Positions 1 through 52,303 of a stretch of DNA of 64,000 nt are shown piece by piece. The stretch is from Aminomonas paucivorans DSM 12260. GTDB lineage: Bacteria > Synergistota > Synergistia > Synergistales > Synergistaceae. The DNA is taken from positions 682,001 to 746,000 of the forward strand of contig NZ_CM001022.1 of assembly GCF_000165795.1 (NCBI RefSeq). The letters are read 5' to 3'. The notes under the pieces were generated by a model, which did not search any database, was not told the DNA's origin, and was given only the letters and a program-made list of their open reading frames with translations. Each line of letters begins with the position of its first letter. The first letter of the stretch is position 1. The translations under genes and the position numbers were made by a program.

Positions 1-3492
<3,492 letters not shown>

Positions 3493-3564
3493 CATCTTTC
3501 TCTTGTGGTCGGTCTCCGGCCTGTCCGGGAGGACAGGATCTTGGAGGAGCGATTGCAGACAAGT

Positions 3565-3682
3565 TTCTGGTGGCCCTAGCGGAGGGGACACACCCGGATC
3601 CATGCCGAACCCGGTCGTTAAGCCCTCCAGCGCCGATGGTACTACGGGGGGTACCCGTGGGAGAGTAGGTCGCCGCCAGAAT
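3565..3682 (+). rRNA. 5S ribosomal RNA
   Basis: A 5S-like sequence of about 118 bases, 72 bases after 23S. The termini (TTCTGGTGGC and GCCGCCAGAA) pair as helix I, and the internal tract CCGAACCCGG at about 3604-3613 is typical of 5S loop B and helix III. No tRNA follows it before the terminator. Confidence 0.93.
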
Positions 3683-22936: not shown

Positions 22937-22990
22937 GGGTTTTGGGTTGGATGCCCAAACCCATCATATCGTTTGTTCCTGGGAGGTCAA
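22937..22990 (-). promoter_or_regulatory. hydFE promoter and leader hairpin
   Basis: On the minus strand, TTGACC (22990-22985), a 16-base spacer and TATGAT (22968-22963). The -35 overlaps the stop codon of the upstream ABC ATPase gene. A stem-loop (22937-22946 with 22954-22962, one bulged base) follows immediately. hydFE can therefore be expressed separately from the chelate transporter, and the hairpin may also partly end the upstream transcript. Confidence 0.5.
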
Positions 22991-23796
22991 TGCCGAGGGC
23001 GGGGCTTCGTCAGGGTTTCCTCCGGCAGGGGCACGCAGGTTCGCATGTCCGGGTTTTCCGGTACTTCCAGAACCCGCACCGCCACACCGTAGGCCTCCCG
23101 GATGAGGGATTCGGTGACCACCTCCGAGGGGGTCCCGCAGCGAAGGAAGCGACCGTCCTTGAGGATCGCCGCGGTGCTGGCGGAGGAGAGGGCATGGTCC
23201 GGAACGTGGGAGGTCAGGAGTACCGAAAGACCTTCCCGGGCCAGGGTCCCGAGGGTGCGAAGGAACCGGGTCTGGTTGCCGAAGTCCAGGTGTGCCGTGG
23301 GTTCGTCCAGCAGGAGGAGTTCCGCCTGCTGGGCCAATACCGAAGCCAGCAGCACCAGCTGTCTCTCCCCTCCGCTGATGTCCGTATAGGGGCGGTCCCG
23401 CAGGGGGAGTACCCCCAGGCGGTCCAGGGCTTCCTCCGCCAGGTGTTGGTCCCGCTTTCCGGGGGAGCCGAAGATCCCCAGATGGGGCGTCCTGCCCAGA
23501 AGAGCCACCTCCAGCGCCGTGAAGGGGAAGACGGGGACATGGTTCTGGGGGATGAAGGCCACTCGGCGCGCGATCTCCCGACGTCCCCAGCGGGAGAGGT
23601 CCTGACCGTCCAGGAGGATTTTCCCGGAGGCGAGGGGCAGCAACCCGTCCAGACACTGGAGGAGGGTGGATTTCCCCGTGCCGTTGGGGCCCAAAAGGCA
23701 GAACACTTCGTTGGGTGTCATGTCGAAGCTCAGTCCCCGGAACACCTCCCGCGATCCGGGGTAGGCGAAGGTGGCGTCCCGAACCTGAAGCTTCAT
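22987..23796 (-). CDS. ABC transporter ATP-binding protein, FecE/BtuD type (second locus)
   Basis: A 269-residue ATPase with Walker A GPNGTGKST (about 36-44), signature ISGGERQLVLLASVL, Walker B LLLLDEPTAHLDF and a switch histidine in TSHVPDHAL. It is a paralogue of the ATPase at 13561-14340. It energises the FecCD-like permease whose stop overlaps its start (ATGA). The likely substrate class is an iron-siderophore, haem or corrinoid chelate. Confidence 0.92.
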   Translation of the reverse strand: MKLQVRDATFAYPGSREVFRGLSFDMTPNEVFCLLGPNGTGKSTLLQCLDGLLPLASGKILLDGQDLSRWGRREIARRVAFIPQNHVPVFPFTALEVALLGRTPHLGIFGSPGKRDQHLAEEALDRLGVLPLRDRPYTDISGGERQLVLLASVLAQQAELLLLDEPTAHLDFGNQTRFLRTLGTLAREGLSVLLTSHVPDHALSSASTAAILKDGRFLRCGTPSEVVTESLIREAYGVAVRVLEVPENPDMRTCVPLPEETLTKPRPRH

Positions 23797-24806
23797 CGCC
23801 AGGCCACCCGGTTGCGGCTCAGAAGCCAGGCGAAGAAGGGCGCCCCGATCAGGGCCGTGAGGATTCCCAGGGGGATTTCCGACGCCGAGAGGGTCCGGGA
23901 GAGGGTGTCCACCAGGAGAAGGTAGAAAGAGCCCAGGGAGATGCTTGCGGGGAGGAGGCGGCGGATGTCCGGTCCCACCAGGAGGCGGCCGATGTGGGGG
24001 ATGACCAGCCCCACCCACCCGATCACCCCGGCAAGGCATACGGCGGAAGATGTGAGAAGGGTACAGGCCAGGATGACCAGCCACCTCTCCCGGACCACCT
24101 CCGCCCCCAACGCTTGAGCCTCCTGCTCTCCGAAGGCCAGGAGGTTCAGTCGCCAGCGCAGGGCCAGCAGAACCCCCAGTCCGACCGCCATCATGGGAGC
24201 GACCGCCAGGAGGTTTGTGAGGGAGACCCGGGCGAGGGACCCCATGAGCCAGAACACCATGGCGGGGAGCTTCTCGTAGGGGTCCGCCTGGAACTTCAGC
24301 AGGGAGATCAGGGCGGAGAAGAAGGACCCCACGATGATGCCCCCCAGGACGAGCACCAGGGTGGAGGCTTTGCGGTAGATCCCGCTGAGACCGGTGGCAC
24401 CCAGCACCGCCACCATGCCGAAGAGGGTCGCGGAAAGCTGCACGATCCATCGGGTCTCGGTGAAGAGAATGGCGAGGCAGGCTCCGAACCCCGATCCGGC
24501 GGCGACACCCAAGACGTAGGGAGATACCAGGGGGTTGCGGAACAGTCCCTGGAAAGCGCAGCCCGAAGAGGACAGGGCGGCTCCTACCATCATGGCTCCC
24601 AGGGCCCGAGGCAGACGCAGGTTCCAGAGGACCGTCTCCATGGTGTCGGGCCAATGGGGCGTCAGAGGGAAGAACTTTGCCGCCAGGATCTTCAGCACCG
24701 TCGGCAGAGGGATGGGGTAGCGTCCGAGGGTGAAGGAAAGGAGGAACAGAGTCAGGGGCAGGAGCGGTAGGAGAAGCGCCGCCCTCGCCCCTTGGGGTTT
24801 AATCAT
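23793..24806 (-). CDS. ABC transporter permease, FecCD/BtuC family (second locus)
   Basis: A 337-residue membrane protein with about ten hydrophobic helices and the family landmarks LRLPRALGAMMVGAALSSSG, FQGLFRNPLVSPYVLG and a C-terminal IPLGILTALIGAPFFAWLL. It starts directly with its first helix, unlike the paralogue at 14340-15473, which carries a long N-terminal extension. It overlaps the binding-protein gene by 8 bases, so the three genes form one coupled operon. Confidence 0.92.
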   Translation of the reverse strand: MIKPQGARAALLLPLLPLTLFLLSFTLGRYPIPLPTVLKILAAKFFPLTPHWPDTMETVLWNLRLPRALGAMMVGAALSSSGCAFQGLFRNPLVSPYVLGVAAGSGFGACLAILFTETRWIVQLSATLFGMVAVLGATGLSGIYRKASTLVLVLGGIIVGSFFSALISLLKFQADPYEKLPAMVFWLMGSLARVSLTNLLAVAPMMAVGLGVLLALRWRLNLLAFGEQEAQALGAEVVRERWLVILACTLLTSSAVCLAGVIGWVGLVIPHIGRLLVGPDIRRLLPASISLGSFYLLLVDTLSRTLSASEIPLGILTALIGAPFFAWLLSRNRVAWR

Positions 24807-25875
24807 CCCCCGGATAGGGTATTCCGTAGAAACGGGTGTAGAACTCGTTCACCACGGGTTGGATGTCGATGTCCGCGAAACGGGCGGGATAGAGTTTCTT
24901 CGCCATCCACAGCTCTCCCAGGGCCATGGACTCCGGGCAGGGGTGTCCCCAGGGTTTCACGTACTCCGGGGTGAGGTAGACCCGCCGATCTCGGACCGCC
25001 CGAACCTTGCCCCATGTGGGGTCCTTGCGGATGTGCTCCGCTACCTTGGCGTACCGGTCCTGCACGAAGATCACCTGGGGATTCCAGAGCAGGATCTGCT
25101 CCATGGTGACCTGGGCATAGCCGTTGATGCCCTCCGCCACGTTCATGCCCCCGGCTCGGTCCATGATGACCCCCGTGTACTTGCCTGTGCCGTAGGTGTA
25201 CAGGTCCGGGTTGGCCATGTAGCAGGTGGTGCGGTCGCCTCGGGGGATGCCGGCGGTTCTTGCCCGGGCCAGGTTCCGCCATTTGAAGGTGAAGTCCAGG
25301 AGTGCCTTGGCCCGGGGCTGCACCCCCAGGACCTCTCCCAGAAGAGTGATCCCTTCCCTCATGCCCTCCGTATAGGCCTGGTCGGGGTTCTTCAGTTTCG
25401 GGTTGAGGCGGGAAGCCTCCTCGTACCGGGCCTTGTAGAGCGCCAAGGCCAGCACCGGAACCCCCGCGTCCTCCATCTGCTGGATCATGTCCTTCGGGGC
25501 GTAGTGGGTCACGATGACCAGGTCCGGTTTGAGGCGCAGAAGCTCCTCCATGTTCACCTCGTTGAGACCGCCGGGGGTGGGGAGCTTTTTCAGAGCCGGA
25601 CAGATCTTCGTGATCCCCGCGGGCAGATCCTTCTGCCAGGTTCGGGTGATCCCCACCAGCCGGTCCGCCGCCCCCAGCTCGATCAGGATGTCCACTCCGT
25701 GGTGCATGAGGCACACCACCCGGTCCACCTTCACCGGTACCGCCACCACCCGGCCCAGCTGGTCCACCACCATGCGCTTCTCCGCCCCGAAGGAGGGCAG
25801 GGGCAGGGCGAGACACCCCGCGAGCAGGATTCCCAGAAACCACAGGCCGCTGTGCTTGAGCAGTCGATCCTTCAT
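24799..25875 (-). CDS. ABC transporter substrate-binding protein, iron-siderophore/cobalamin type (second locus)
   Basis: A 358-residue exported protein. The leader has a possible lipobox LLAGC at about 18-22 and also a possible signal-peptidase I site after PSFGA. The mature part is a TroA-superfamily fold starting VVDQLGRVVAVPVKVDRVV and ending EFYTRFYGIPY. The ATG at 25875 lies 8 bases after CGGGGAG; a GTG at 25881 is too close to it. It is the first gene of the second chelate-uptake operon and is preceded by a good promoter, an operator-like site and a leader hairpin. Confidence 0.9.
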   Translation of the reverse strand: MKDRLLKHSGLWFLGILLAGCLALPLPSFGAEKRMVVDQLGRVVAVPVKVDRVVCLMHHGVDILIELGAADRLVGITRTWQKDLPAGITKICPALKKLPTPGGLNEVNMEELLRLKPDLVIVTHYAPKDMIQQMEDAGVPVLALALYKARYEEASRLNPKLKNPDQAYTEGMREGITLLGEVLGVQPRAKALLDFTFKWRNLARARTAGIPRGDRTTCYMANPDLYTYGTGKYTGVIMDRAGGMNVAEGINGYAQVTMEQILLWNPQVIFVQDRYAKVAEHIRKDPTWGKVRAVRDRRVYLTPEYVKPWGHPCPESMALGELWMAKKLYPARFADIDIQPVVNEFYTRFYGIPYPGDD

Positions 25876-25900: not shown

Positions 25901-25926
25901 TGACCCCTTCCCGCAGGAAGAGGTCA
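25901..25926 (-). promoter_or_regulatory. leader hairpin of the second chelate operon
   Basis: An 11-bp stem with one mismatch (25901-25911 with 25916-25926) and a CGCA loop, 26 bases before the binding-protein start. A second imperfect hairpin lies at about 26001-26023. Neither matches the conserved core of a cobalamin riboswitch as I know it. Confidence 0.4.
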
Positions 25927-26039
25927 GGAGAAACGGCACACCGGAACCCCCTTTCCAAGCGGGAGGCGGTCCCGTTTCCAGGCACGCCCGATGGCCCGAT
26001 TCCTTAGGCGATGCCCTTAGGAAGAGGGGCTCGGAGGTT

Positions 26040-26052
26040 GAAACCAAGTTGC
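26040..26052. promoter_or_regulatory. operator-like site shared with the first chelate operon
   Basis: GAAACCAAGTTGC, one base different from the perfect palindrome at 15567-15579. It lies 8 bases downstream of the -10 element, over the expected transcription start, where a repressor would act. Confidence 0.5.
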
Positions 26053-26060
26053 TTCCGAAG

Positions 26061-26089
26061 ACTTTAATCGGAGCATCCTCGCCTGTCAA
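26061..26089 (-). promoter_or_regulatory. sigma-70 promoter of the second chelate operon
   Basis: On the minus strand, a consensus TTGACA (26089-26084), a 17-base spacer and TAAAGT (26066-26061). This is among the best promoter matches in the window. Confidence 0.65.
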
Positions 26090-40674: not shown

Positions 40675-40717
40675 AAGGCCGGAGGAGGGGGTAGAATTAG
40701 ATCAATCGAGTGATTGA
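40670..40717 (+). promoter_or_regulatory. promoter and TetR operator of the efflux ABC operon
   Basis: TTTACA (40670-40675), a 16-base spacer and TAGAAT (40692-40697). Four bases later comes a palindrome with 6-base arms, TCAATCGAGTGATTGA (40702-40717), covering the expected transcription start, followed by the ribosome site. The layout is typical of an autorepressed TetR operon. Confidence 0.65.
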
Positions 40718-40733
40718 AACGAGGAGGTGCGTC

Positions 40734-41402
40734 ATGAGCGAGACGTTGTGGGATTGGGGGCCCGAGGACGGCGTCCTCTTCTCCCGGTCTCGGGAGGGGG
40801 ATTCGCAGAAGGAGCGGCTTCTGGAGGCGGGGGTGACCCTGTTTGCCCGGCAGGGCTTCGAGGGGACGTCCATCCGGGACCTGGCCAGGGAGGCGGGGTG
40901 CAACAGCTCTCTCGTGTCCTACCACTTCGGGAGCAAGGAGGGGCTCTATCGGGCGGTGCTCCAGGGACACTTCGACGTCCTCATGGAGAACCTGGAGGTC
41001 CTCAAGGGGCGAGACGAGCCCCCCATCCGCCGGCTGGTCTCGGTGTGCCGACTCGTCATGGGGATGCACCGGCGCTACCCCCATCTCTGGCCTCTGGTCC
41101 TGCGGGAGATGCAGCGCCCCACGGATGCTCTGACGGAGATGTTCCAGCGTGCGGTGGCCTGTCTGGCGGGGTACGTGATGGAGACCCTGCGGGAGGGGAT
41201 CCGTCAGGGGCTCTTCCGGGAGGATCTGGTGCCGGAACACGGGACCCTGGCCCTGGCGGGGATGCTCAACTTCTATTTCCTCTCGGAGCCCGTTTCGGGG
41301 TTTCTCATCCCTCGCGGTCCCGAGACGGACGAGATCTACGCCCAGCAGGTGCTGGCCCTGTTTCTGGACGGGGTGCGGCTCCCGGAGGAGGACGGACGAT
41401 GA
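40734..41402 (+). CDS. TetR-family transcriptional repressor (CecR-like)
   Basis: A 222-residue regulator with a TetR helix-turn-helix near residues 35-80 (LFARQGFEGTSIRDLAREAG, then NSSLVSYHFGSKEGLYR) and a helical ligand-binding C-terminal domain. Its place in front of HlyD and ABC exporter genes mirrors E. coli cecR (ybiH) before ybhGFSR. It probably represses its own operon through the palindrome at 40702-40717. GAGGAGGTG precedes the ATG. Its stop overlaps the next start (ATGA). Confidence 0.9.
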   Translation: MSETLWDWGPEDGVLFSRSREGDSQKERLLEAGVTLFARQGFEGTSIRDLAREAGCNSSLVSYHFGSKEGLYRAVLQGHFDVLMENLEVLKGRDEPPIRRLVSVCRLVMGMHRRYPHLWPLVLREMQRPTDALTEMFQRAVACLAGYVMETLREGIRQGLFREDLVPEHGTLALAGMLNFYFLSEPVSGFLIPRGPETDEIYAQQVLALFLDGVRLPEEDGR

Positions 41403-42385
41403 AACGGCGAGCCCTGGCGCTGGGGGTGCTGGTCCTTCTGCTGGGCGGAGGCGCCTGGTGGTGGCACCGGAGGGAGACGCAACGGGCGGAAGAGGAGCGG
41501 GTCGTCCGAGCGACGGGCACCGTGGAGGTGACCCACGGGGACGTGACCTGCCGCGTCGCCGGGACCCTGAAGTGGCAGAAGCTGGCCGAGGGAAGCCGCG
41601 TTGCCGCAGGGTCCCCGGTGGCCTTCGTGGAGGTGCCCCAGATGGAGGCCCAGACCCGTCGGGACCGGGCGGCCCTGGAGAGGAACCGGGCGGTGCTGGC
41701 GGACCTGGAGGCCGGGGCCCGGGGACAGGAGCTTCGGGAGGCCCGGGCGAACGTGCGGGCTCAGGAGGCCCGGGCGGCCCATGCCCTGGCGGACTGGAAG
41801 CGCATGCGGACCCTCTTTGACGAGGGGGTGGTGGCCCAGGCCGACCTGGACCGGGTTCGGGAGGTTCGGGACGTGACGGCGGGGAACCTGGAGGCGGCGA
41901 GGCAGCGGCTGGCTCTCCTGGAAGCGGGGACCCGGGAACAGACCCTCCAGGCTCAGCGCCTGGAGGTGAAGCGAGCGGAGGCGGTGGTGGAGATCGACGA
42001 GGCTCTGCAAGGAGACCAGACGGTCCGGGCTCCTCTCTCCGGGGTGGTGCTCTCCCGGAACCGGGAGCCCGGGGAATACGTGGTCCCCGGTTCGGTGCTG
42101 GCCACGGTGGGGGATCTGGAGGACTGCTGGGTGCGGATCTACGTGGCTTCCACCCAACTGGGGCGGGTGCGTCTGGGGCAGACGGCTCGGCTGAAAGTGG
42201 ACTCCTATCCCGACCGGACCTTCCGGGGGAAGGTGACGGAGATCGCCCAGGAAGCGGAGTTCACCCCCCGGCAGACCCTTACCCAGGAGGAGCGGGCGAA
42301 CCTGGTGTTCTTCGTGAAGGTGAAGATCGAAAACCCCCAGGGCATCCTCAAGCCCGGTCTGCCCGTGGACGTGGAGCTGCCGTGA
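41399..42385 (+). CDS. HlyD-family membrane-fusion protein (YbhG-like)
   Basis: A 328-residue adaptor with one N-terminal membrane helix (about 5-22), a split lipoyl domain (CRVAGTLKWQKLAEGSRVAAG and VRAPLSGVVLSRNREPGEYV) and a long coiled-coil hairpin between them (about 75-185). It should couple the ABC exporter to the periplasm or an outer-membrane channel. It overlaps both neighbours by 4 bases (ATGA and GTGA). Confidence 0.9.
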   Translation: MKRRALALGVLVLLLGGGAWWWHRRETQRAEEERVVRATGTVEVTHGDVTCRVAGTLKWQKLAEGSRVAAGSPVAFVEVPQMEAQTRRDRAALERNRAVLADLEAGARGQELREARANVRAQEARAAHALADWKRMRTLFDEGVVAQADLDRVREVRDVTAGNLEAARQRLALLEAGTREQTLQAQRLEVKRAEAVVEIDEALQGDQTVRAPLSGVVLSRNREPGEYVVPGSVLATVGDLEDCWVRIYVASTQLGRVRLGQTARLKVDSYPDRTFRGKVTEIAQEAEFTPRQTLTQEERANLVFFVKVKIENPQGILKPGLPVDVELP

Positions 42386-43278
42386 GCGACGCCCCGGTGC
42401 TGGCGTTTCGAGGGGTGGTCAAGCGTTTCGGGAGCCGGGAGGCCCTTCGGGGGGTGGACCTGGAGGTGCGGCGCGGGGAGATCTTCGGCCTTCTGGGGCC
42501 CGACGGGGCGGGAAAGACCACCCTCCTTCGGGTGGGGCTGGGGCTTCTGGAGGCGGAGGAGGGGGAGACGGTCCTCCTGGGAGGGGCGACCCGAGGGCGG
42601 GACCGGGTGGGCTATGTGCCCCAGCGGTTCAGCCTCTATCGGGACCTCTCGGTGAGGGAAAACCTGTGCCTTTTCGGGGCCCTGTACGGTGCGAAGCGGA
42701 AAATCGTCGAGGAAAAGGGGAAGGAGATCCTGATCAAGACCGACCTTTGGCCCTTCCGGGATCGCCTGGCGGATCGGCTCTCCGGGGGGATGAAGCAGAA
42801 GCTGGCCCTGGCGGCGGGGCTGATGCACCGGCCAGAGCTTCTGGTGCTGGACGAGCCCACCACGGGGGTGGACCCGGTGTCCCGGAGGGAGTTCTGGGAA
42901 CTCCTCTACGCCCTCCACGAAGAGGGGCTGACGGTGCTGGTCTGCACCCCCTACATGGACGAGGCGGAGCTGTGCACCCGCCTGGGTTTCCTCCACCAGG
43001 GGGCCCTGCTGCGGGCGGGTACGGGAGAGGAGCTTCTGTCGGGCTATCCCTGGCGCATCCTGGAGGTGGAGATGGGGGGGCGGGACGGGGAGGTCCTGCG
43101 GGTCCCGGGGGTCCGGGAGGTGAACGCCTTCGGGGAACGGTACCACCTGGTGACGGGGGACCCGGAGGAGGTCCGGCGACGCCTGGAGGCTTCCGAAAAC
43201 GGGAAGATCCGGGGGGTGCGGGAGATCCCCCCGACCCTGGAGGACCTCTTCGTCCACCTGGCGGAGGAAGCCTCGTGA
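42382..43278 (+). CDS. ABC exporter ATP-binding protein, first of a pair (YbhF N-half-like)
   Basis: A 298-residue ABC-2-type ATPase beginning with GTG. Walker A is GPDGAGKTT (about 36-44), the signature LSGGMKQKLALAAGL and Walker B LLVLDEPTTGVDP. A Q-loop VPQRFSLYRDLSV resembles that of YbhF. In E. coli YbhF two such modules are fused; here they are separate genes joined by a GTGA overlap. Confidence 0.9.
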   Translation: MSDAPVLAFRGVVKRFGSREALRGVDLEVRRGEIFGLLGPDGAGKTTLLRVGLGLLEAEEGETVLLGGATRGRDRVGYVPQRFSLYRDLSVRENLCLFGALYGAKRKIVEEKGKEILIKTDLWPFRDRLADRLSGGMKQKLALAAGLMHRPELLVLDEPTTGVDPVSRREFWELLYALHEEGLTVLVCTPYMDEAELCTRLGFLHQGALLRAGTGEELLSGYPWRILEVEMGGRDGEVLRVPGVREVNAFGERYHLVTGDPEEVRRRLEASENGKIRGVREIPPTLEDLFVHLAEEAS

Positions 43279-44219
43279 ACGCCGTAGAGACCCGGGGCCT
43301 GACGAAGCGCTTCGGTTCCTTCGTCGCCGTGGACCGCCTCACCCTGGAGGTCCCGGAGGGCGGGGTCTTCGGCTTTCTCGGTCCCAACGGATCGGGGAAG
43401 TCCACCACCATCCGGATGCTCTGCGGTCTGTTGGAACCCACCTCCGGGGAGGGGCGGGTGCTGGGGTTCGACGTGGGGCGCAGCCCCCGGGAGATTCGGG
43501 AACGCATCGGCTACATGTCCCAGAAGTTCAGCCTCTACGAAGACCTGACGGTGGAGGAGAACCTGGCCTTCTACGCGGGGCTCTACGGCCTTGCGGGGGA
43601 CGAGAAGTCCCGGAGGATGGGGGAGATGATCGCCCTGGCGGGGCTGGAGGAGCGTCGCTCCGACAGGGTGGCCCACCTGTCCGGGGGGTGGCGGCAGCGA
43701 CTGGCCCTGGGAAGCGCCATCCTGCACCGCCCCCGGATGCTCTTCCTGGACGAGCCCACGGGAGGGGTGGATCCCCGGGCCCGGCGGCTGTTCTGGGACA
43801 TCATCTACGACCTGGCTCGGGAGGGCACCACGGTTCTGGTGACCACCCACTTCATGGACGAAGCGGAGCACTGCGACCGGGTGGGCTTCCTCTACGAGGG
43901 GGAGCTGGTGGCCTGCGGGACCCCCAAGGGGCTGAAGGAGGCGTTTCCCGGGCGGTTGCTGGAGGGGGTCTGCCCCTCTCCTCTGGAAGAGGTCCGGCGG
44001 CTGCGCCGGGAAGGGGGGCCCCTGGTGCGGGACGCTTACGTCTTCGGAAGGCGTTTTCGGGTGGTGCTGCCCCCGGATGCCCCGTCGGACGCGGCCCGGT
44101 CCCTGGGGTGCGGGGTCTCTCTGGCGGAGGTGTCTCCCTCCCTGGAGGACCTGTTCGTGCGCACCGTGGTGCGCCGTCGGGAGGAGAGAAAGGAAGGGGT
44201 GGAGCCATGGGGCGCCTGA
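43275..44219 (+). CDS. ABC exporter ATP-binding protein, second of a pair (YbhF C-half-like)
   Basis: A 314-residue ATPase starting at GTG 43275. Walker A is GPNGSGKST (about 35-43), the signature LSGGWRQRLALGSAI, Walker B MLFLDEPTGGVDP and the switch histidine in TTHFMDEAEH. The C terminus ends in a basic tail. It overlaps the permease gene by 13 bases. The first ATPase of the pair has a cysteine (VCTPYMDEAE) where the switch histidine is usual, so this second module may be the more active one. Confidence 0.9.
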   Translation: MNAVETRGLTKRFGSFVAVDRLTLEVPEGGVFGFLGPNGSGKSTTIRMLCGLLEPTSGEGRVLGFDVGRSPREIRERIGYMSQKFSLYEDLTVEENLAFYAGLYGLAGDEKSRRMGEMIALAGLEERRSDRVAHLSGGWRQRLALGSAILHRPRMLFLDEPTGGVDPRARRLFWDIIYDLAREGTTVLVTTHFMDEAEHCDRVGFLYEGELVACGTPKGLKEAFPGRLLEGVCPSPLEEVRRLRREGGPLVRDAYVFGRRFRVVLPPDAPSDAARSLGCGVSLAEVSPSLEDLFVRTVVRRREERKEGVEPWGA

Positions 44220-45331
44220 AGGCCCTGCTGGTGAAGGAGTTCATCCAGATGCGCCGGGACCGGCTGACCTTCGCCATGATCATCGGCATCCCGGTGATCC
44301 AGCTGCTGATCTTCGGGTTCGCCATCAACACGGAGGTGAAGCACCTGCCCACGGCGGTGTTCGACCAGTCCCTGAGCCGGGAGGGACGGGAACTGCTGGA
44401 CGCCTTCGTGGCCAGCGGCTATTTCGACGTCCAGGAGGTGGCGAAGAGCTACGGGGAGATGAACGAGGCGGTGGAAAGCGGGCGCTGCAAGGTGGGCATC
44501 GCCTTGCCCCCGGATTTCGCCTCCCGTCTGGGGCGGGGGGAGCCCGGGGAGGTTCAGGTGGTGGTGGACGCCTCGGACTCCATGTCCGCCTCCTCCGCCA
44601 TCGCGGCGGCCCAGATGCTGGGGATGGTGCGTTCCCAGCGGGTGCAGGCCCGGACCCTCCAGTCCCTGGGGATCCGGGGGGCGCGGGGGACCTACGACGT
44701 ACGGGTCCGGTCCTGGTACAACCCGGATTTCGTCTCCTCCTGGTACATGGTGCCGGGGATCCTGGGGGTGATCCTCATCATGACCCTGGTGATGGTCACC
44801 TCCATGGCCATCGTCCGGGAGCGGGAGCTGGGGACCCTGGAACAGCTTCTGGTGACCCCCGTCCACCCCTGGGAGCTGCTGGTGTCCAAGATCGTGCCCT
44901 ACATCTTCATGGGCTACGCCCAGACCACCCTGGCCCTCGCGGTGGGGGTGCTGGTGTTTCGTCTGCCCGTCCGGGGGAGCCTGGGGCTGTTCTACGCCCT
45001 CATGTCCTTCTACATCGTGGCCTCCCTGGCTCTGGGCATCCTCATCTCCAGCGCCGTGAAGACCCAGATGCAGGCCATGCAGCTGTCCTTCTTCATTTTC
45101 CTCCCCAGCGTGCTGCTGTCGGGGTTCATGTTTCCCCGGGAGGCCATGCCGCCGTTCTTTCGCGCCCTGGGGGCCCTGCTCCCCATCACCCACTTTTTGG
45201 TGATCGCCCGGGGAATCATCCTCAAGGGGCTGGGGATCTCCTTCCTCTGGGCTCCCGTGGGGGTCCTCCTGGCCTTCATCGTCGTGGTCTTCACCCTGAG
45301 CGTGCTGCGCTTCCACACCAAGTTGGAATGA
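44207..45331 (+). CDS. ABC-2-type exporter permease (YbhS/YbhR-like)
   Basis: A 374-residue permease. The first helix (about 19-41) follows VKEFIQMRRDRLTFAMII, then a large periplasmic domain and five more helices. The conserved VPGILGVILIMTLVMVTSMA and RERELGTLEQLLVTP segments are typical of this family. E. coli has two such permeases (YbhS and YbhR); only one is found here, so the exporter may use a homodimer. It is the last gene of the TetR operon. Confidence 0.9.
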   Translation: MGRLKALLVKEFIQMRRDRLTFAMIIGIPVIQLLIFGFAINTEVKHLPTAVFDQSLSREGRELLDAFVASGYFDVQEVAKSYGEMNEAVESGRCKVGIALPPDFASRLGRGEPGEVQVVVDASDSMSASSAIAAAQMLGMVRSQRVQARTLQSLGIRGARGTYDVRVRSWYNPDFVSSWYMVPGILGVILIMTLVMVTSMAIVRERELGTLEQLLVTPVHPWELLVSKIVPYIFMGYAQTTLALAVGVLVFRLPVRGSLGLFYALMSFYIVASLALGILISSAVKTQMQAMQLSFFIFLPSVLLSGFMFPREAMPPFFRALGALLPITHFLVIARGIILKGLGISFLWAPVGVLLAFIVVVFTLSVLRFHTKLE

Positions 45332-46108: not shown

Positions 46109-46244
46109 GTTCCGTCATCACAAAAGAGTTGGGCCTCCGAGCCCGGGCAGCCTAAAGGGGAAACCCCATGGCGCCGGGACGTTAGGGTGCAGGGGGAAAC
46201 CGCTGTGCCTCCCTTTCGGAAAGGAGGAACCGGAACGATGCGTC
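46109..46244 (+). promoter_or_regulatory. structured leader RNA, proposed Moco/Tuco-type riboswitch
   Basis: A folded leader before a putative Mo/W operon. Its parts are a core CTCCGAGCC (46135-46143), a stem of GGTGCAG (46186-46192) with CTGTGCC (46203-46209) closing a GGGAAAC loop (46194-46200), an adjoining hairpin (46208-46227) and 3' CGGAAC (46231-46236) able to pair with GTTCCG (46109-46114). The second leader at 48330-48470 has the same parts in the same order. Known Moco riboswitches precede molybdate-transport and cofactor genes, which fits this locus; the class assignment is inferred from context and general resemblance. Confidence 0.6.
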
Positions 46245-46278
46245 GGGCCGGCTCCTTGCCATGGGGGCCGGCCCTTTT
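46245..46278 (+). terminator. terminator in the expression platform of leader RNA 1
   Basis: GGGCCGGC (46245-46252) pairs with GCCGGCCC (46267-46274), extended inward by TCC/GGG, and is followed by TTTT. It comes directly after the aptamer, where a riboswitch would control transcription termination. Confidence 0.65.
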
Positions 46279-46297
46279 GTGAGCGTACCCTCTCATT

Positions 46298-46350
46298 GGA
46301 GGGGGAAGGTCCCCCAACCTTCCCCCTCCCCCCTTGTTGGACGCATCGTT
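46298..46350 (+). promoter_or_regulatory. second hairpin and long-range pairing strand of leader RNA 1
   Basis: A perfect 13-bp hairpin (46298-46310 with 46317-46329) follows the terminator. GACGCATCGTT (46340-46350) is exactly complementary to AACGATGCGTC (46234-46244) at the 3' edge of the aptamer. That 11-bp helix would compete with closing of the aptamer and would enclose the two hairpins, ending about 30 bases before the start codon. Confidence 0.5.
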
Positions 46351-46379
46351 TCCTCCATGGCCAAGGGAGGGGACTGTTG

Positions 46380-47117
46380 GTGCGATACTTTATCGGCTTC
46401 GACGACACGGACATCCTGGAGGCGGACCGGGGTACCGGCAAGTTGGCTCGTTGGTTTGCCTGCTCCCTCCCCGAAGGGTTCCGTTCCCTGGGGGTGCTGC
46501 GCCAGCAGCTCCTGGTAGACCCCCGCATTCCCTACACGTCCCACAACAGCGCCGCCTGCGTTGTGGCGGAGTCGGAGGACCCCGAGAGCGTCCCTCTTCT
46601 GGTGGAGGCTGCCGTCGGGCATCTGGCGACGCACTTTCTGGAAGGGAGCGACCCGGGGCTTTGCGTGGCCTCCGAGGTGGCGGACTGGGCGTGCCTGGAG
46701 GATTTCGGGCGACGGGCCGCCGGGGAGGTGCTTTCCCAAAAGGCGGCCCGGGAGGCGGCCCGGGGGGTGCATCTGTCCGCCCACGGGGGTACCGGGGACG
46801 GGATCATCGGGGCCCTGGCGGCGGTGGGGCTCACCCATCGGGGCTGGACCGGGCGGTACGTGGAGTTCGGCGGGCTGAGGGAGATCCCGCAGGAGGTCTC
46901 GGTGGGGGAACTTGCCGCCCGGGGCATCCGGGTGGCGCCGCTGGATCGGGACGCCACGGTCCCTCGGGAGGCGGACCGGGTGCTCCACGAGGGGTGGCTT
47001 CGCCCTCGCCTGCTGGGGGGGGTGCCGGTGCTCCCCGTGACCCCGGAAGGGCCGGGATGCTGGCGTTTTGCCGATCCCCGGAGGCGGGCTCCCGATGGGG
47101 GTAAGGCGCAGGGATGA
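46380..47117 (+). CDS. TiaS-like protein with N-terminal FDDTD motif, function unknown
   Basis: A 245-residue protein. The start RYFIGFDDTDILEADRGTG (residues 2-20) matches the first motif of archaeal TiaS (agmatinyl-cytidine tRNA synthetase), and VHLSAHGGTGDGIIGALAAVG matches its second conserved block. Only this kinase-like N-terminal module is present; the RNA-binding parts of TiaS are missing. The gene follows a Mo/W-type leader RNA and precedes Mo/W storage and transport genes, so it may act in molybdo- or tungsto-pterin metabolism. GTG 46380 is chosen: GGGAGGGG lies 7 bases upstream. Confidence 0.7.
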   Translation: MRYFIGFDDTDILEADRGTGKLARWFACSLPEGFRSLGVLRQQLLVDPRIPYTSHNSAACVVAESEDPESVPLLVEAAVGHLATHFLEGSDPGLCVASEVADWACLEDFGRRAAGEVLSQKAAREAARGVHLSAHGGTGDGIIGALAAVGLTHRGWTGRYVEFGGLREIPQEVSVGELAARGIRVAPLDRDATVPREADRVLHEGWLRPRLLGGVPVLPVTPEGPGCWRFADPRRRAPDGGKAQG

Positions 47118-47197
47118 GGCGAGAGCGCCTTGGGTTTGACGTGTCGGTGGTGTATTCTGGTAGAGCGACGCAATCCTAGAAAAGAGGGGGTCGTCTC

Positions 47198-47437
47198 ATG
47201 AAAGGGACCATTTTCTACCGGGAACGGCGGAAGATCGAGGAAGGGGAGCGCAAGCCCCGCTTCCGGGTGGTGGCGGTGTCGGGGGCGGACCTGAAGGTCT
47301 TCGCCACCCACCTCCGCATGGAGGAACTCCGGGCCCTGGCGGCGGCGGTGGGGGCGGAACTGATGCCCCTGGAGGCCGGAGGCGGGGAGGAAGGGCACGA
47401 GCACCGGCGCAAGAAGAACGGCTGCTGCGAGCAGTAG
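47198..47437 (+). CDS. 79-residue hypothetical protein of the Mo/W locus
   Basis: A small basic protein (MKGTIFYRERRKIEEGERKP start). The middle segment VVAVSGADLKVFATHLRMEELRALAAAVGAEL looks like a compact alpha-beta unit. The tail is metal-ligand-rich: GHEHRRKKNGCCEQ, with two histidines and two cysteines. No family is recognised. AGAGGGGG lies about 7-10 bases before the ATG. It sits between the TiaS-like gene and the storage-protein homologue in one direction. Confidence 0.65.
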   Translation: MKGTIFYRERRKIEEGERKPRFRVVAVSGADLKVFATHLRMEELRALAAAVGAELMPLEAGGGEEGHEHRRKKNGCCEQ

Positions 47438-47498
47438 TCGCGAGGGGGAGGGGGCCGGAGTCCCCTCCCCCGGGAACGCTTCGGAGGGAGGATCGGCC

Positions 47499-48326
47499 AT
47501 GTCCCTGGTTCGGGACCGAGACGGCAAACGACTGCACATCAAGAGCGTTCTCATGGGGGAAAGTCTGGTCTCCCGAGATCTTCCGGACAAGCTCCACCTG
47601 GCGCCCCAGGCCCGCCTCTTTCCGGACGTGAACGTCCTCAAGATCGGCGGCCAGTCCATCTGTGACCGGGGGGCCAAGGCGCTCCCGGGGATCATCCGGG
47701 AGCTGGTGGCGGCCAAGTCCCGGCACCGGATGCTCCTGACCACCGGGGGCGGCACCCGGAGCCGCCACATCTACACCATCGGCCTGGAGCTGGGGATGCC
47801 CACGGGGATCATCGCCAAGTTCGGCAGCTCCATCTCAGAACAGAACGCCCTGCTGGTGGCCATGCTCCTTTCTCCCTGGGGGGGCATCAAGATCGGCCAC
47901 GACGAGCTGGTGAAGCTCTCCAGCTATTTCGCCCAGGGGTGTCTCCCCGTGATCCACGGGATGCCTCCCTACGACTACTTCGCCCTGCCCGCCCCGGGGC
48001 GCATCCCCCTGCACCGCACCGACGTGGGGACGGTGCTCCTGGCGGACCTCATCGGGGCGAAGAGCTGCATCTTCGTGAAGGACGAACGGGGGCTCTTCAC
48101 CGACGACCCGAAGAAGGATCCCGCGGCGGAGTTCATCCCCGAAATCGGGGCGGGGGAGCTGATGGAACGGGACCTCCCGGACCTGGCGGTGGAGCGGCCC
48201 TGTCTGGAGATCCTCCGGCAGAGCGAGGTGCTGGAGCGCATCCAGATCGTGAACGGCATGGAAGAGGGCCAGATCACCCGAGCCTTGGAGGGAGAACCCG
48301 TGGGCACGGTGATCCGCAAGGAATAG
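47499..48326 (+). CDS. molybdenum storage protein (MosA/MosB)-like amino-acid-kinase-fold protein
   Basis: A 275-residue protein of the amino-acid kinase superfamily, close in length and pattern to the Azotobacter Mo/W storage protein subunits: VNVLKIGGQSICDRG (about 45-59), LLTTGGGTRSRHIYTIG and HRTDVGTVLLADLIGAKSCIFVKDERGLFTDDP. UMP kinases share the fold but lack several of these segments. Azotobacter uses an alpha-beta heterohexamer; only one gene is present here, so a homo-oligomer is expected. The role would be storing polyoxomolybdate or tungstate with ATP. It ends just before the second leader RNA. Confidence 0.8.
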   Translation: MSLVRDRDGKRLHIKSVLMGESLVSRDLPDKLHLAPQARLFPDVNVLKIGGQSICDRGAKALPGIIRELVAAKSRHRMLLTTGGGTRSRHIYTIGLELGMPTGIIAKFGSSISEQNALLVAMLLSPWGGIKIGHDELVKLSSYFAQGCLPVIHGMPPYDYFALPAPGRIPLHRTDVGTVLLADLIGAKSCIFVKDERGLFTDDPKKDPAAEFIPEIGAGELMERDLPDLAVERPCLEILRQSEVLERIQIVNGMEEGQITRALEGEPVGTVIRKE

Positions 48327-48329
48327 AAG

Positions 48330-48470
48330 AGCAAGGCGTTTCCACCCCCGGGGATCCCCGGGTTGTTCGACCCCGAGCCGCAGGCCCTACCGGGAATCAA
48401 CCCCACGGGTCGCGGCCGACAGGGTGGCGCGGGAAACGGCGCCGCCTTCCAGCGAGAAGGGGTTGCTTCG
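48330..48470 (+). promoter_or_regulatory. second structured leader RNA, same class as 46109-46244
   Basis: The leader of the tungstate-uptake genes. It holds CCCCGAGCC (48371-48379), a stem GGTGGCGC (48423-48430) with GCGCCGCC (48439-48446) closing GGGAAAC (48431-48437), and an adjoining hairpin CCTTC/GAAGG (48445-48449 with 48456-48460). Flanking GAGCAA and TTGCTT strands can close it. Three further hairpins follow before the ribosome site (around 48473-48490, 48509-48528 and 48531-48546). It is proposed to be a Moco/Tuco-type riboswitch. Confidence 0.6.
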
Positions 48471-48588
48471 TACCGGTTCTTGTCGAACCGAAGGGTTGCC
48501 TTCCCTTCCTCCGCTGGCGTACGGAGGCTTCCCCGGAGCACCGGGGTGCGTCTCATACACCATTCCACACAAGGAGGAGTCCTTCATC

Positions 48589-49428
48589 ATGCGCAAACAC
48601 AAACGATTGACCTTCGTCCTGGCCCTGGCGGCCCTGTTGGCGGTCACGGCGGGAGCGGCGGTTGCCGCCAAGGCCCCGGTCCTGCGGATGGCCACCACCA
48701 CCAGCACGGACAACACGGGGCTGCTGGACTACCTGGCCCCCCTGTTCCAGAAGGACACGGGCATCGAGATCCAGTGGGTCTCCGTGGGCACGGGCAAGGC
48801 CCTGGAGTACGGACGCAACGGGGATGTGGACGTGGTGCTGGTGCACGACCCCGACGCGGAGAAGAAGTTCGTGGCCGACGGGGCGGGGGTGAACCGTCGC
48901 CAGGTCATGTACAACGACTTCGTGATCCTGGGTCCCAAGAGCGATCCTGCGGGGATCAAGGGGATGAAGGTCGAGGACGCCATGAAGAAGATCGGGGAGA
49001 AGCAGGCCCCCTTCGCCAGCCGGGCGGACAAGTCGGGGACCCACATGGCGGAGCTGAAGCTCTGGAAGGCCGCGGGCATGGGCGTCCCGGACAAGCAGAA
49101 CTGGTACATCCAGACCGGTCAGGGCATGTTGGAGACCATCAACGTGGCGGGGGAACGGAAGGGCTACGTCCTGGCGGACCGGGGCACCTTCATCAAGTAC
49201 GAGGCCAACTTCAAGGGCAACCCGCCCCTGGTGATCCAGGTGGAGGGAGACCCGAACCTGCGGAACCAGTACAGCGTCATCGCCGTAAACCCCTCCAAGT
49301 GGCCCGGGGTGAAGTACGACCTGGCCCTGAAGTACATCAACTGGCTGGGAAGCCCCAAGACCCAGAAGGCCATCGGGGACTACAAGCTCATGAACAAGCA
49401 GCTTTTCTTCCCCAACGCCAAGCAGTAG
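48589..49428 (+). CDS. tupA: tungstate ABC transporter substrate-binding protein TupA
   Basis: A 279-residue exported protein; signal peptide at about 1-25 (AAVAA-KAP). The mature chain starts LRMATTTSTDNTGLLDYLAP, the TupA hallmark whose TTTS motif binds the oxyanion, followed by GTGKALEYGRNGDVDVVLVHD. It captures tungstate (possibly molybdate) for TupB and TupC. AAGGAGGAGT lies 8 bases before the ATG. The gene is headed by the second leader RNA. Confidence 0.92.
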   Translation: MRKHKRLTFVLALAALLAVTAGAAVAAKAPVLRMATTTSTDNTGLLDYLAPLFQKDTGIEIQWVSVGTGKALEYGRNGDVDVVLVHDPDAEKKFVADGAGVNRRQVMYNDFVILGPKSDPAGIKGMKVEDAMKKIGEKQAPFASRADKSGTHMAELKLWKAAGMGVPDKQNWYIQTGQGMLETINVAGERKGYVLADRGTFIKYEANFKGNPPLVIQVEGDPNLRNQYSVIAVNPSKWPGVKYDLALKYINWLGSPKTQKAIGDYKLMNKQLFFPNAKQ

Positions 49429-49491: not shown

Positions 49492-50187
49492 ATGGACTTT
49501 CTGTCGGAGGGATTCTTCCAGGCCTTCGGGCTGATCTTCTCGGGGAACGAGGAGACCTGGACCACCGTGCTGATCACCCTGAAGCTCACGGCCCTGTCCA
49601 TGGCGGCCACCCTGGTCCTGGGGCTGCCTCTGGGGTTTCTCCTGGGGTACTTCGACTTTCCCGGCAAGAGGTGGGTGCGCATGACCGTGGACACCCTGCT
49701 GGCCCTGCCCACGGTGGTGGTGGGGCTCCTGGTGTACGCCTTCATCTCCAATCGAGGGCCCTTCGGGGAGTGGCAGCTTCTGTTCACCATCCGGGGCATG
49801 GCCATCGGCCAGACCCTGTTGGCCCTGCCCATCGTGGTGGCCCTCACCGCCTCGGCCATCGAGGGGTTGGACCGGCGGCTGCGCCTCACCCTGCTCACCC
49901 TGGGGGCGGACGGGCGAAGGCTCGCCCTCTCCAGCCTTTGGGAGAGCCGCTACCAGGTGCTCCTGGCGGCGGTGACCGCCTACGGCCGCATCATCGCCGA
50001 GGTGGGGGTCTCCATGATGCTGGGGGGCAACATCAAGTGGCACACCCGGACGATCACCACCGCCATCACCCTGGAGACGGGAAAGGGGGACTTCGCACTG
50101 GGCATCGCCCTGGGGCTCCTTCTCCTCTCCCTGTCCTTCGTCCTCAACGCCAGCCTTTCCCTGCTCCGCCGCCGGGCGGAGTCCTGA
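49492..50187 (+). CDS. tupB: tungstate ABC transporter permease TupB
   Basis: A 231-residue membrane protein with five or so helices. The oxyanion-transporter permease pattern is clear: LALPTVVVGLLVYAFISNRGP, and the EAA-like loop LTLGADGRRLALSSLWESRY followed by AEVGVSMMLGGNIKWHTR. It forms the channel for TupA. A GC-rich inverted sequence in the 63 bases after tupA may dampen read-through. Confidence 0.92.
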   Translation: MDFLSEGFFQAFGLIFSGNEETWTTVLITLKLTALSMAATLVLGLPLGFLLGYFDFPGKRWVRMTVDTLLALPTVVVGLLVYAFISNRGPFGEWQLLFTIRGMAIGQTLLALPIVVALTASAIEGLDRRLRLTLLTLGADGRRLALSSLWESRYQVLLAAVTAYGRIIAEVGVSMMLGGNIKWHTRTITTAITLETGKGDFALGIALGLLLLSLSFVLNASLSLLRRRAES

Positions 50188-50221: not shown

Positions 50222-51076
50222 ATGAAAACGAAGATCTGCAAGCGTTTTGCCCTGCCCTTCCTGGGAATCGCAGTCCTCTCCCTACTGGCTGCCTTCCCTG
50301 CCCTGGCGGGGGAGGTGAAGATGTCCAGCACCATCGGCCCCATCGACGCGGGCATCGTCCCGGCGCTGGTTCAGGCCTACGAGAAGAAGACCGGGGACCG
50401 GGTGGTCTTCGAGGGCGCCGGGACCGGCGCCACCCTGGAGAAGGCCAAGACGGGGAACTTCGACCTGGTGATGGTGCACGCCCGGAAGCTGGAGGACCAG
50501 TTCGTGAAGGAAGGTTTCGGGGTGGATCGGCGAGACGTGATGTTCAACGACTTCGTCATCCTGGGCCCCGCCGAGGACCCCGCGGGGATCAAGGGGATGA
50601 AGGACGCCGCCGGGGCCTTCAAGAAGCTTGCCACCTCCGGGGTGGTCTTCTTCACCCGGGGGGACAACTCCGGGACCCACGTGAAGGAGATGGAGGTCTG
50701 GGCCAAGTCCGGGGTGAACCCCCAGTGGGAGAACTACACCACCTTCTCCCTGGGCAAGCTGGGCAACAAGGCCACCACTGCCTTCGCCAACAAACGGAAG
50801 GCCTATCTCCTCATGGACCGGGCCACGGTGCTCACCATGGGCAAGGAGAACAAACTGGCGATCCTGGTGGAGGGTGACCCGATCCTGCGCAACGAGATCG
50901 CCGTCATCGCCGTGAATCCCTCCCGGTTCCCCAAGGTGAACGCCGCCGGGGCCAAGGCCTTCATGGATTGGCTGGTGTCCGACGAGGCCCAGACCCTCAT
51001 CAAGGACTTCGGGGTGGAGAAGTACAAGCAGCCCCTCTTCTTCCCCAACTCCGACTCCTGGAAGAAGAGCCACTAG
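50222..51076 (+). CDS. second, divergent TupA-like substrate-binding protein
   Basis: A 284-residue exported protein (signal peptide about 1-29, PALA-GEV). It is clearly related to TupA, sharing NDFVILGP, DPAGIKGMKDA, NSGTHVKEMEVW and the end GVEKYKQPLFFPN. The oxyanion-binding opening is different: MSSTIGPIDAG replaces TTTSTDNTG. It may bind the same ion with other affinity, or another oxyanion such as molybdate. It lies between tupB and the ATPase gene, 34 bases after tupB. Confidence 0.88.
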   Translation: MKTKICKRFALPFLGIAVLSLLAAFPALAGEVKMSSTIGPIDAGIVPALVQAYEKKTGDRVVFEGAGTGATLEKAKTGNFDLVMVHARKLEDQFVKEGFGVDRRDVMFNDFVILGPAEDPAGIKGMKDAAGAFKKLATSGVVFFTRGDNSGTHVKEMEVWAKSGVNPQWENYTTFSLGKLGNKATTAFANKRKAYLLMDRATVLTMGKENKLAILVEGDPILRNEIAVIAVNPSRFPKVNAAGAKAFMDWLVSDEAQTLIKDFGVEKYKQPLFFPNSDSWKKSH

Positions 51077-51232: not shown

Positions 51233-52303
51233 ATGGAGACGCGAGCGGCGATCCGGGAGGAAGGCATCCCTGCGGCGCCCCCCCTCTTCGAACTGCGGGA
51301 CGTGGAGTTCGCCTACGGAGGCCGGACGGTCCTGTCCCTCCGGCACCTGGCCTTTCCCCAGGGTGCGGTGGTGGGGCTGGTGGGGCCCAACGGCAGCGGG
51401 AAGAGCACCCTCCTCAAACTGCTGGCCCTGCTCCTGGCCCCGACCCGGGGGCAGCTTCTCTACGGGGGACAGGTCGCTGCGGGACGGGAGGGGGAGCTGC
51501 GCCGGGAGGTGACCCTGCTCCTCCAGGAGCCCTTCCTGCTGAAGCGGACGGTGTTCGAGAACGTGGCCTACGGCCTGCGGACCCGAGGGCTGGTGGAGGG
51601 TGTTTCGGAGCGGGTGGAGGAGGCCCTTTCCCTGGTGGGGCTGTCGCCGAAGCGCTTCGCCTCCCGACAGTGGTACCAGCTTTCGGGAGGCGAGGCCCAG
51701 CGGGTGAGCCTGGCCTCCCGCCTGGCCCTGCGCCCCCGGGCGCTGCTGCTGGACGAGCCCACCGCCAGCGTGGACGAGTCCAGCGCTCTGCTCATCAAGG
51801 AAGCGGTGGTGGCGGCCTCCTCGGAATGGGGCACCACCCTGGTGGTGGCCACCCACGACCTGGTGTGGCTCCACGAGGTGGCCACCGACGTGGTGAGCCT
51901 CTACCGGGGGCGGGTGGCGGGACACGGGGCGGAGAACCTCATCCAGGGGTCCTGGGTCCTGGACCCCGCGGGGGGGCTGCGCCGCCCCCTGGCGGACGGT
52001 CAGTGGATCCGTGCCCTGGGACCCGAGGGGAGCGACGAGCCTCCCTCCGTGGGGATCCTGGGTCCCTCCGACGTGACCCTGGCCACGGAGAAACCCTCCC
52101 ACCTCTCCGCCCAGAACCTGCTGCAGGGGCAGGTGACCCACATGGCCCTGGAGAACGGTTCCGGACGGGTCCTGGTCTCGGTGAACGTGGGAGGGCTGCT
52201 CCTCAAGGCGAGGGTGACTCCCGAGGCGGTCCTCTCCCTGGGGCTGCACCCGGGGCTGGAGGTCTGGGCGATCTTCAAGGCCACGGCCCTGCGCTGGCTT
52301 TAG
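51233..52303 (+). CDS. tupC: tungstate/molybdate ABC transporter ATP-binding protein with C-terminal TOBE/Mop domain
   Basis: A 356-residue ATPase with Walker A GPNGSGKST (about 54-62), signature LSGGEAQRVSLASRL and Walker B ALLLDEPTASVDE. Residues 290-355 (SAQNLLQGQVTHMALENGSG and onward) form a TOBE/Mop-type module that can bind the oxyanion and feed back on transport. It should energise TupB. It comes 156 bases after the second binding protein, with a hairpin between them. Confidence 0.88.
   Translation: METRAAIREEGIPAAPPLFELRDVEFAYGGRTVLSLRHLAFPQGAVVGLVGPNGSGKSTLLKLLALLLAPTRGQLLYGGQVAAGREGELRREVTLLLQEPFLLKRTVFENVAYGLRTRGLVEGVSERVEEALSLVGLSPKRFASRQWYQLSGGEAQRVSLASRLALRPRALLLDEPTASVDESSALLIKEAVVAASSEWGTTLVVATHDLVWLHEVATDVVSLYRGRVAGHGAENLIQGSWVLDPAGGLRRPLADGQWIRALGPEGSDEPPSVGILGPSDVTLATEKPSHLSAQNLLQGQVTHMALENGSGRVLVSVNVGGLLLKARVTPEAVLSLGLHPGLEVWAIFKATALRWL

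Follow-up and report, generated by a model that had tools for sequence, protein, structure and literature searches.

Gene content of the locus

The DNA that we analysed, hereafter the window, is a stretch of 64,000 nucleotides from the genome of Aminomonas paucivorans DSM 12260 (2.63 Mb, one contig; NZ_CM001022.1, positions 682,001 to 746,000). It contains an operon of three genes, encoding a TiaS-like protein (TiaSL), a 79-residue orphan protein (p79) and a homologue of the molybdenum storage protein MoSto, and behind it a set of tungstate transporter genes, with a structured RNA leader in front of each. A third such RNA precedes a FecBCD-type importer on the opposite strand (Table 1). The TupA- and TupB-like proteins both score below the NCBIfam equivalog cut-offs, with Tup still the best family for both. 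Homologues of the importer's binding protein stand under the same RNA in the related genomes G117 and G082. The window begins (1-3681) with the end of a 16S rRNA gene, followed by 23S and 5S rRNA genes. Adjoining the Mo/W locus, at 40710-45331, the translated open reading frames correspond to a TetR-type regulator, an HlyD-like protein, two ABC ATPases and an ABC-2 permease, likely an efflux operon.

Table 1. Features of the Mo/W locus and of the importer locus, in window coordinates.
Feature	Position	Strand	Evidence
Importer ABC ATPase	22987..23796	-	Pfam ABC_tran
FecCD permease	23793..24806	-	Pfam FecCD
FecB-type periplasmic binding protein (MolA-like by position and class)	24799..25875	-	Pfam Peripla_BP_2
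Intrinsic terminator after third aptamer	25901..25926	-	
Third Moco/Tuco riboswitch aptamer, P3-less	25932..26048	-	RF01055 61.8 bits
Sigma-70-like promoter TTGACA-17-TAAAGT, just upstream of third aptamer	26061..26089	-	0.0 expected in shuffles
P3-less Moco/Tuco riboswitch aptamer upstream of the tiaS-like/p79/mosto operon	46123..46242	+	RF01055 58.6 bits; P3 positions deleted
Predicted antiterminator, AAGGAG(GAA)CCGG (P1 3′ side) with CCGGCUCCUU (terminator 5′ arm)	46221..46257	+	Minimum-energy fold
Intrinsic terminator, GGGCCGGCUCCUUGCCAUGGGGGCCGGCCC then UUUUGUG	46245..46274	+	Same-place terminators in G117, G023, L201
TiaSL, 245 aa, similar to the catalytic (TCKD) domain of TiaS alone	46380..47117	+	NCBIfam, Foldseek, motifs
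p79, 79-aa orphan protein	47198..47437	+	58 homologues beside TiaSL/MoSto
MoSto homologue, single gene, MosB-like	47499..48326	+	PDB MoSto beta E 3.9e-62, alpha 2.3e-46
P3-less Moco/Tuco riboswitch aptamer upstream of tupA	48359..48478	+	RF01055 53.6 bits
TupA-like tungstate-binding protein	48589..49428	+	NCBIfam TupA 342 bits, cut-off 400
TupB-like permease	49492..50187	+	NCBIfam TupB 280 bits, cut-off 320
Second TupA-like binding protein	50222..51076	+	NCBIfam TupA 175.5 bits
TupC-like ATPase with TOBE domain	51233..52303	+	Pfam ABC_tran, TOBE

The leaders belong to a known riboswitch family

The leaders of the tiaSL operon (leader 1) and of tupA both match RF01055, the covariance model of the Molybdenum/Tungsten riboswitch (Moco RNA; gathering cut-off 36 bits), over its full length, with E-values of 1.8e-11 and 4.9e-10, respectively. 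An earlier, sequence-only reading of this DNA had proposed two homologous leaders of this class, and the Rfam search bears it out. The CCGAGC core and the G(G)GAAAC loop stem that it described are also correct, and the same leaders stand ahead of the orthologous operons in related genomes. Its 5′ borders, however, lay 14 and 29 bases too early, and the third copy in the window was overlooked. What it took for an adjoining CCTxC/GxAGG hairpin was mis-assigned: GGAGG is the 3′ strand of P1, and its partner is the 5′ CCUCC ahead of the core (columns 12-16 with 111-115 in an alignment of 20 RNAs). Within that alignment, 12 of the 24 predicted pairs show double changes with pairing retained.

The whole genome holds six copies, which precede genes for an XDH-type enzyme and a cupin, a response regulator, the FecBCD-type importer, the tiaS-like operon, tupA and a MoeA-like/FDH operon. 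The P3 positions of the model are deleted in all six, and we rejected the P3-bearing subtype for every one of them. To the extent that the paper of Regulski et al. 2008 (PMC2408646) is covered here, its RF01055 RNAs have in common with ours the sequence, the P1/P2/P4-P5 architecture, transporter or enzyme genes downstream, terminators behind the RNA, a P3-less subtype and several copies per genome. It is well supported that the window RNAs are ordinary, P3-less members of a known riboswitch family. Synergistota is absent from the phyla named in the abstract of that paper, and the parts of it covered here do not name a tiaS-like/p79/MoSto operon, a FecBCD-type importer or a response regulator as targets.

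P3 status and the tungsten link across Synergistota

RF01055 is present in 57 of a sample of 120 Synergistota genomes. We assigned P3 status by length and fold for the 111 RNAs that were retrieved, and by match length for the remainder. A P3 hairpin was observed in 11 of the 111: five before modABC-moeA, all in one genus, five before XDH and cupin genes, and one cut off. P3 is missing from the remaining 100, which stand before tupA/tupB (40), XDH (19), response regulator (11), wtp (7), FDH (6), AOR (3), molA (3) and tiaSL (3) genes and a few others. None of the 11 P3-bearing RNAs in this sample is followed by a tup gene, and five of the genomes with RNAs retrieved carry both types, on different genes. 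Of the 52 genomes with P3-less RNAs, 51 have AOR genes (PF01314), compared with 6 of 63 without RF01055 and none of the five with P3-bearing RNAs only, a contrast that reflects few independent events because these five all share one genus. The A. paucivorans genome itself contains, besides its tup genes, three AOR genes. We stress that P3 does not sort every gene, because XDH-type genes stand under both RNA types; for this reason, and because the modABC cases come from a single genus, the strength of the link between P3 and tungsten is limited.

Three further observations concern individual RNAs. G021 and G023 have 139-nt RNAs that were considered as candidates for P3; inspection by eye showed P2 to be longer and P3 to be absent. 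At one locus (L007, 941-1767; genome C1:755440) a P3-less RNA overlaps the start of a response-regulator gene encoding receiver and HTH domains, and an XDH gene is often next in the 11 cases of RNAs before such regulators. At L049, L051, L053 and L054 (genomes G072, G025, G010 and G064), tupA is preceded by P3-less RNAs in tandem, spaced by about 200-250 bases, an arrangement already described for Moco/Tuco RNAs in the literature.

Terminators behind the aptamers

The terminator of leader 1 is a 12-bp helix that starts three bases past the aptamer match. When positions 46123-46262 were folded, the antiterminator of Table 1 was part of the free minimum, at −64.5 kcal/mol compared with −59.9 kcal/mol with P1 forced (a gap of 4.6). 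Across the phylum, terminators follow 65 of the 111 aptamers, as against 72 of 1110 shuffles (6.5%), and in these 65 leaders the P1 3′ strand pairs more strongly with the terminator 5′ half than with shuffled halves (p = 2e-11). Since leader 1 and the importer leader have intrinsic terminators, and the P1 3′ strand can pair with the terminator 5′ arm, an OFF-switch acting by termination is likely. A terminator with a U-tract was looked for in the tupA leader of the window and not found; the orthologous tupA leaders of G117, G023 and G082 do carry one, and the window copy may be controlled in another mode, perhaps at translation. Behind the terminator of leader 1 lies a second GC-rich hairpin (46280-46330; GGGGGAGG...CCUCCCCC, then a run of C); such hairpins occur in tiaSL leaders of three genomes (L044 and L045 among them) and at L177 (3384-3620).

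TiaSL, p79 and a single-gene MoSto

TiaS is the archaeal tRNA-Ile2 agmatidine synthetase. Against the NCBIfam TiaS model, TiaSL scores 31.7 bits (cut-off 600) over positions 1-158 of 422, well short of an equivalog and of the full-length architecture, and a Pfam search returned nothing even at E 10. Its predicted fold (mean pLDDT 74.8) nevertheless has nine significant Foldseek matches in the PDB, all to TiaS (5xob, E 8e-9); 3amt and 5xob are structures of archaeal TiaS, and 3u02 is a standalone one. The motifs DDTD and GTG are invariant in 74 homologues, and IP-x-TS-x-NS, GSDPG and GGxxxGxIGA are invariant or nearly so. TiaSL and archaeal TiaS share the fold of the N-terminal catalytic domain, the DDTD motif and a GxIGAxAAVG segment; they differ in that TiaSL has the first domain only, at about 30% identity, is bacterial and tied to W/Mo genes, and occurs in a genome that also has TilS. 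The TiaS-like and Mo-storage calls of the sequence-only reading were therefore sound (by Foldseek and NCBIfam, and by the PDB MoSto match, respectively), although the former protein lies well under the TiaS family cut-off. In the part of the literature covered, we found no work linking TiaS with molybdenum storage.

For p79 we found no Pfam or NCBIfam match (in Pfam, none even at E 10) and no PDB fold match below E 0.7. It resembles the small tungstate-binding proteins Tub and Mop (PMC11980592) in size and in its tungsten storage context, but is without a TOBE domain or a detectable fold match. MoSto is represented by one gene in the genome, in place of the two genes of an alpha-beta heterohexamer. 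Its product is similar in sequence to both subunits of Azotobacter vinelandii MoSto (PDB 2ogx; PMC6448029), beta being nearest; unlike mosA and mosB, the gene is single, accompanied by those of TiaSL and p79, and found in anaerobes.

The order tiaSL-p79-mosto is kept in G117, G023 and G082. A riboswitch stands in front in G117 and G023, and was not found before tiaSL in G082 even at E 0.1. At L201 the riboswitch directly precedes tiaSL, with MoSto next and p79 upstream of the riboswitch, so that riboswitch control of a tiaSL/MoSto operon is found in four Synergistota lineages. In a Coriobacteriaceae locus (L139) tiaSL and tupA have a riboswitch between them; outside Synergistota, RF01055 is missing from 29 of the 40 TiaSL genomes searched. 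A scan of genome contigs yielded more than 500 relatives, and of the 80 loci taken further, mostly from Desulfobacterota, 57 have p79 nearby and 53 have MoSto, with tup genes frequent and FDH, ModA and a PBP-type regulator as further W/Mo-linked neighbours. TiaSL and MoSto occur in the same 5 of 120 Synergistota genomes (uncorrected for relatedness). Among 198 Desulfobacterota genomes, 16 have MoSto, including 13 of the 14 with TiaSL (p = 1e-16, again uncorrected for relatedness); the three with MoSto and no TiaSL (G170, G215 and G243) each have two MoSto genes, which are mosAB-like. From these observations, we regard it as well supported that TiaSL and p79 are members of a W/Mo system.

Two variant arrangements were also observed. 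Further W/Mo-linked neighbours, in MoSto-free loci, are a TonB receptor and an ECF-like ABC system; at six loci, mostly without MoSto (L124, L137, L148, L153, L168 and L193), the ECF-like transporter consists of a double ATPase, a permease and a small membrane protein, and uptake of a W/Mo compound is a possible role. At 23 Desulfobacterota loci (L125, L126, L127, L142 and L187 among them) tiaSL and p79 are separated by an oppositely oriented gene for a PadR/PhaQ-like regulator, and MoSto, of only about 50% identity, is on the regulator strand.

Ligand, mode of control and function of the operon

We propose, with a probability of roughly 0.85, that the two leaders and the third RNA are P3-less RF01055 riboswitches that most likely work as OFF-switches with the tungsten cofactor as ligand. 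With sufficient cofactor, P1 would close and the intrinsic terminator would form, stopping transcription; with cofactor lacking, the P1 3′ strand would pair with the terminator 5′ arm, and the genes for tungstate uptake and W/Mo storage would be read. P3-less RNAs were proposed to sense this cofactor by Regulski et al. 2008 (PMC2408646), in the parts covered here. The sequence-only reading had likewise preferred the Tuco variant, a choice strengthened by the six P3-less copies, the genes that they control and the AOR link within the phylum; on these same three grounds the ligand is most likely the tungsten cofactor. XDH-type enzymes are as a rule of the molybdenum class, and XDH-type genes follow P3-less RNAs in 16 genomes; P3-less RNAs might thus respond to the molybdenum cofactor, or to either of the two, with P3 loss a mere drift of lineages, and the sub-cut-off scores of TupA and TupB in this genome would suit such a reading. 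We consider it rather unlikely given the AOR contrast, the lack of any tup gene under P3-bearing RNAs, the five genomes that retain both types on different genes and, in the parts of the 2008 paper covered here (PMC2408646), the same pattern in other phyla. As to the mode of control, the fold of full-length leader 1 favours a predicted 17-bp helix between the P1 3′ side (about 46225-46244) and 46341-46358, whose downstream strand, UUUCCUCC, precedes the ribosome site GGGAGGGG. Leader 1 could then act at translation, by freeing or hiding that site, with the terminator secondary; but the strong terminator is reached earlier, and relatives have kept it, which makes translational control improbable. 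A ligand-induced terminator, and hence an OFF-switch, is the likely layout of leader 1, its ligand and direction of action being inferred.

The TiaS fold and the DDTD motif would also be expected if TiaSL were a tRNA-modifying enzyme standing here by chance. TilS does the tRNA-Ile2 job in bacteria, however, and the genome encodes TilS (177 bits, cut-off 93.6), so that tRNA-Ile2 has no need for TiaSL. The C-terminal TiaS domains are moreover gone (245 compared with about 420 residues) and the co-occurrence of TiaSL with MoSto is near complete, so a tRNA-modifying role has very little chance of being right. Within the storage operon, TiaSL and p79 would most likely aid the loading, release or use of the oxometallate held by the single-gene MoSto. 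More tentatively, and at somewhat less than even odds, we hypothesize that the three proteins make up a single storage system for tungsten (or W/Mo). Its TiaS-kinase-domain relative would carry out a new ATP-dependent reaction, acting on the stored oxometallate or on a cofactor that contains pterin or cytidine, and in Synergistota the tungsten cofactor would turn the system off via the riboswitch.

The RNA class is a known one. What is more unexpected is the target: a protein with a TiaS domain and a small orphan, tied to a single-gene MoSto. The Synergistota survey provides a phylum-wide, independent check of the proposal that RNAs without P3 sense the tungsten cofactor, and it covers genomes with both types. 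Whereas a 2019 paper stated that Azotobacter MoSto has no known homologues in protein databases (PMC6448029), we find single-gene MoSto homologues in many anaerobes, repeatedly with the same partners, and the operon anchors two uncharacterised protein families firmly in W/Mo metabolism.
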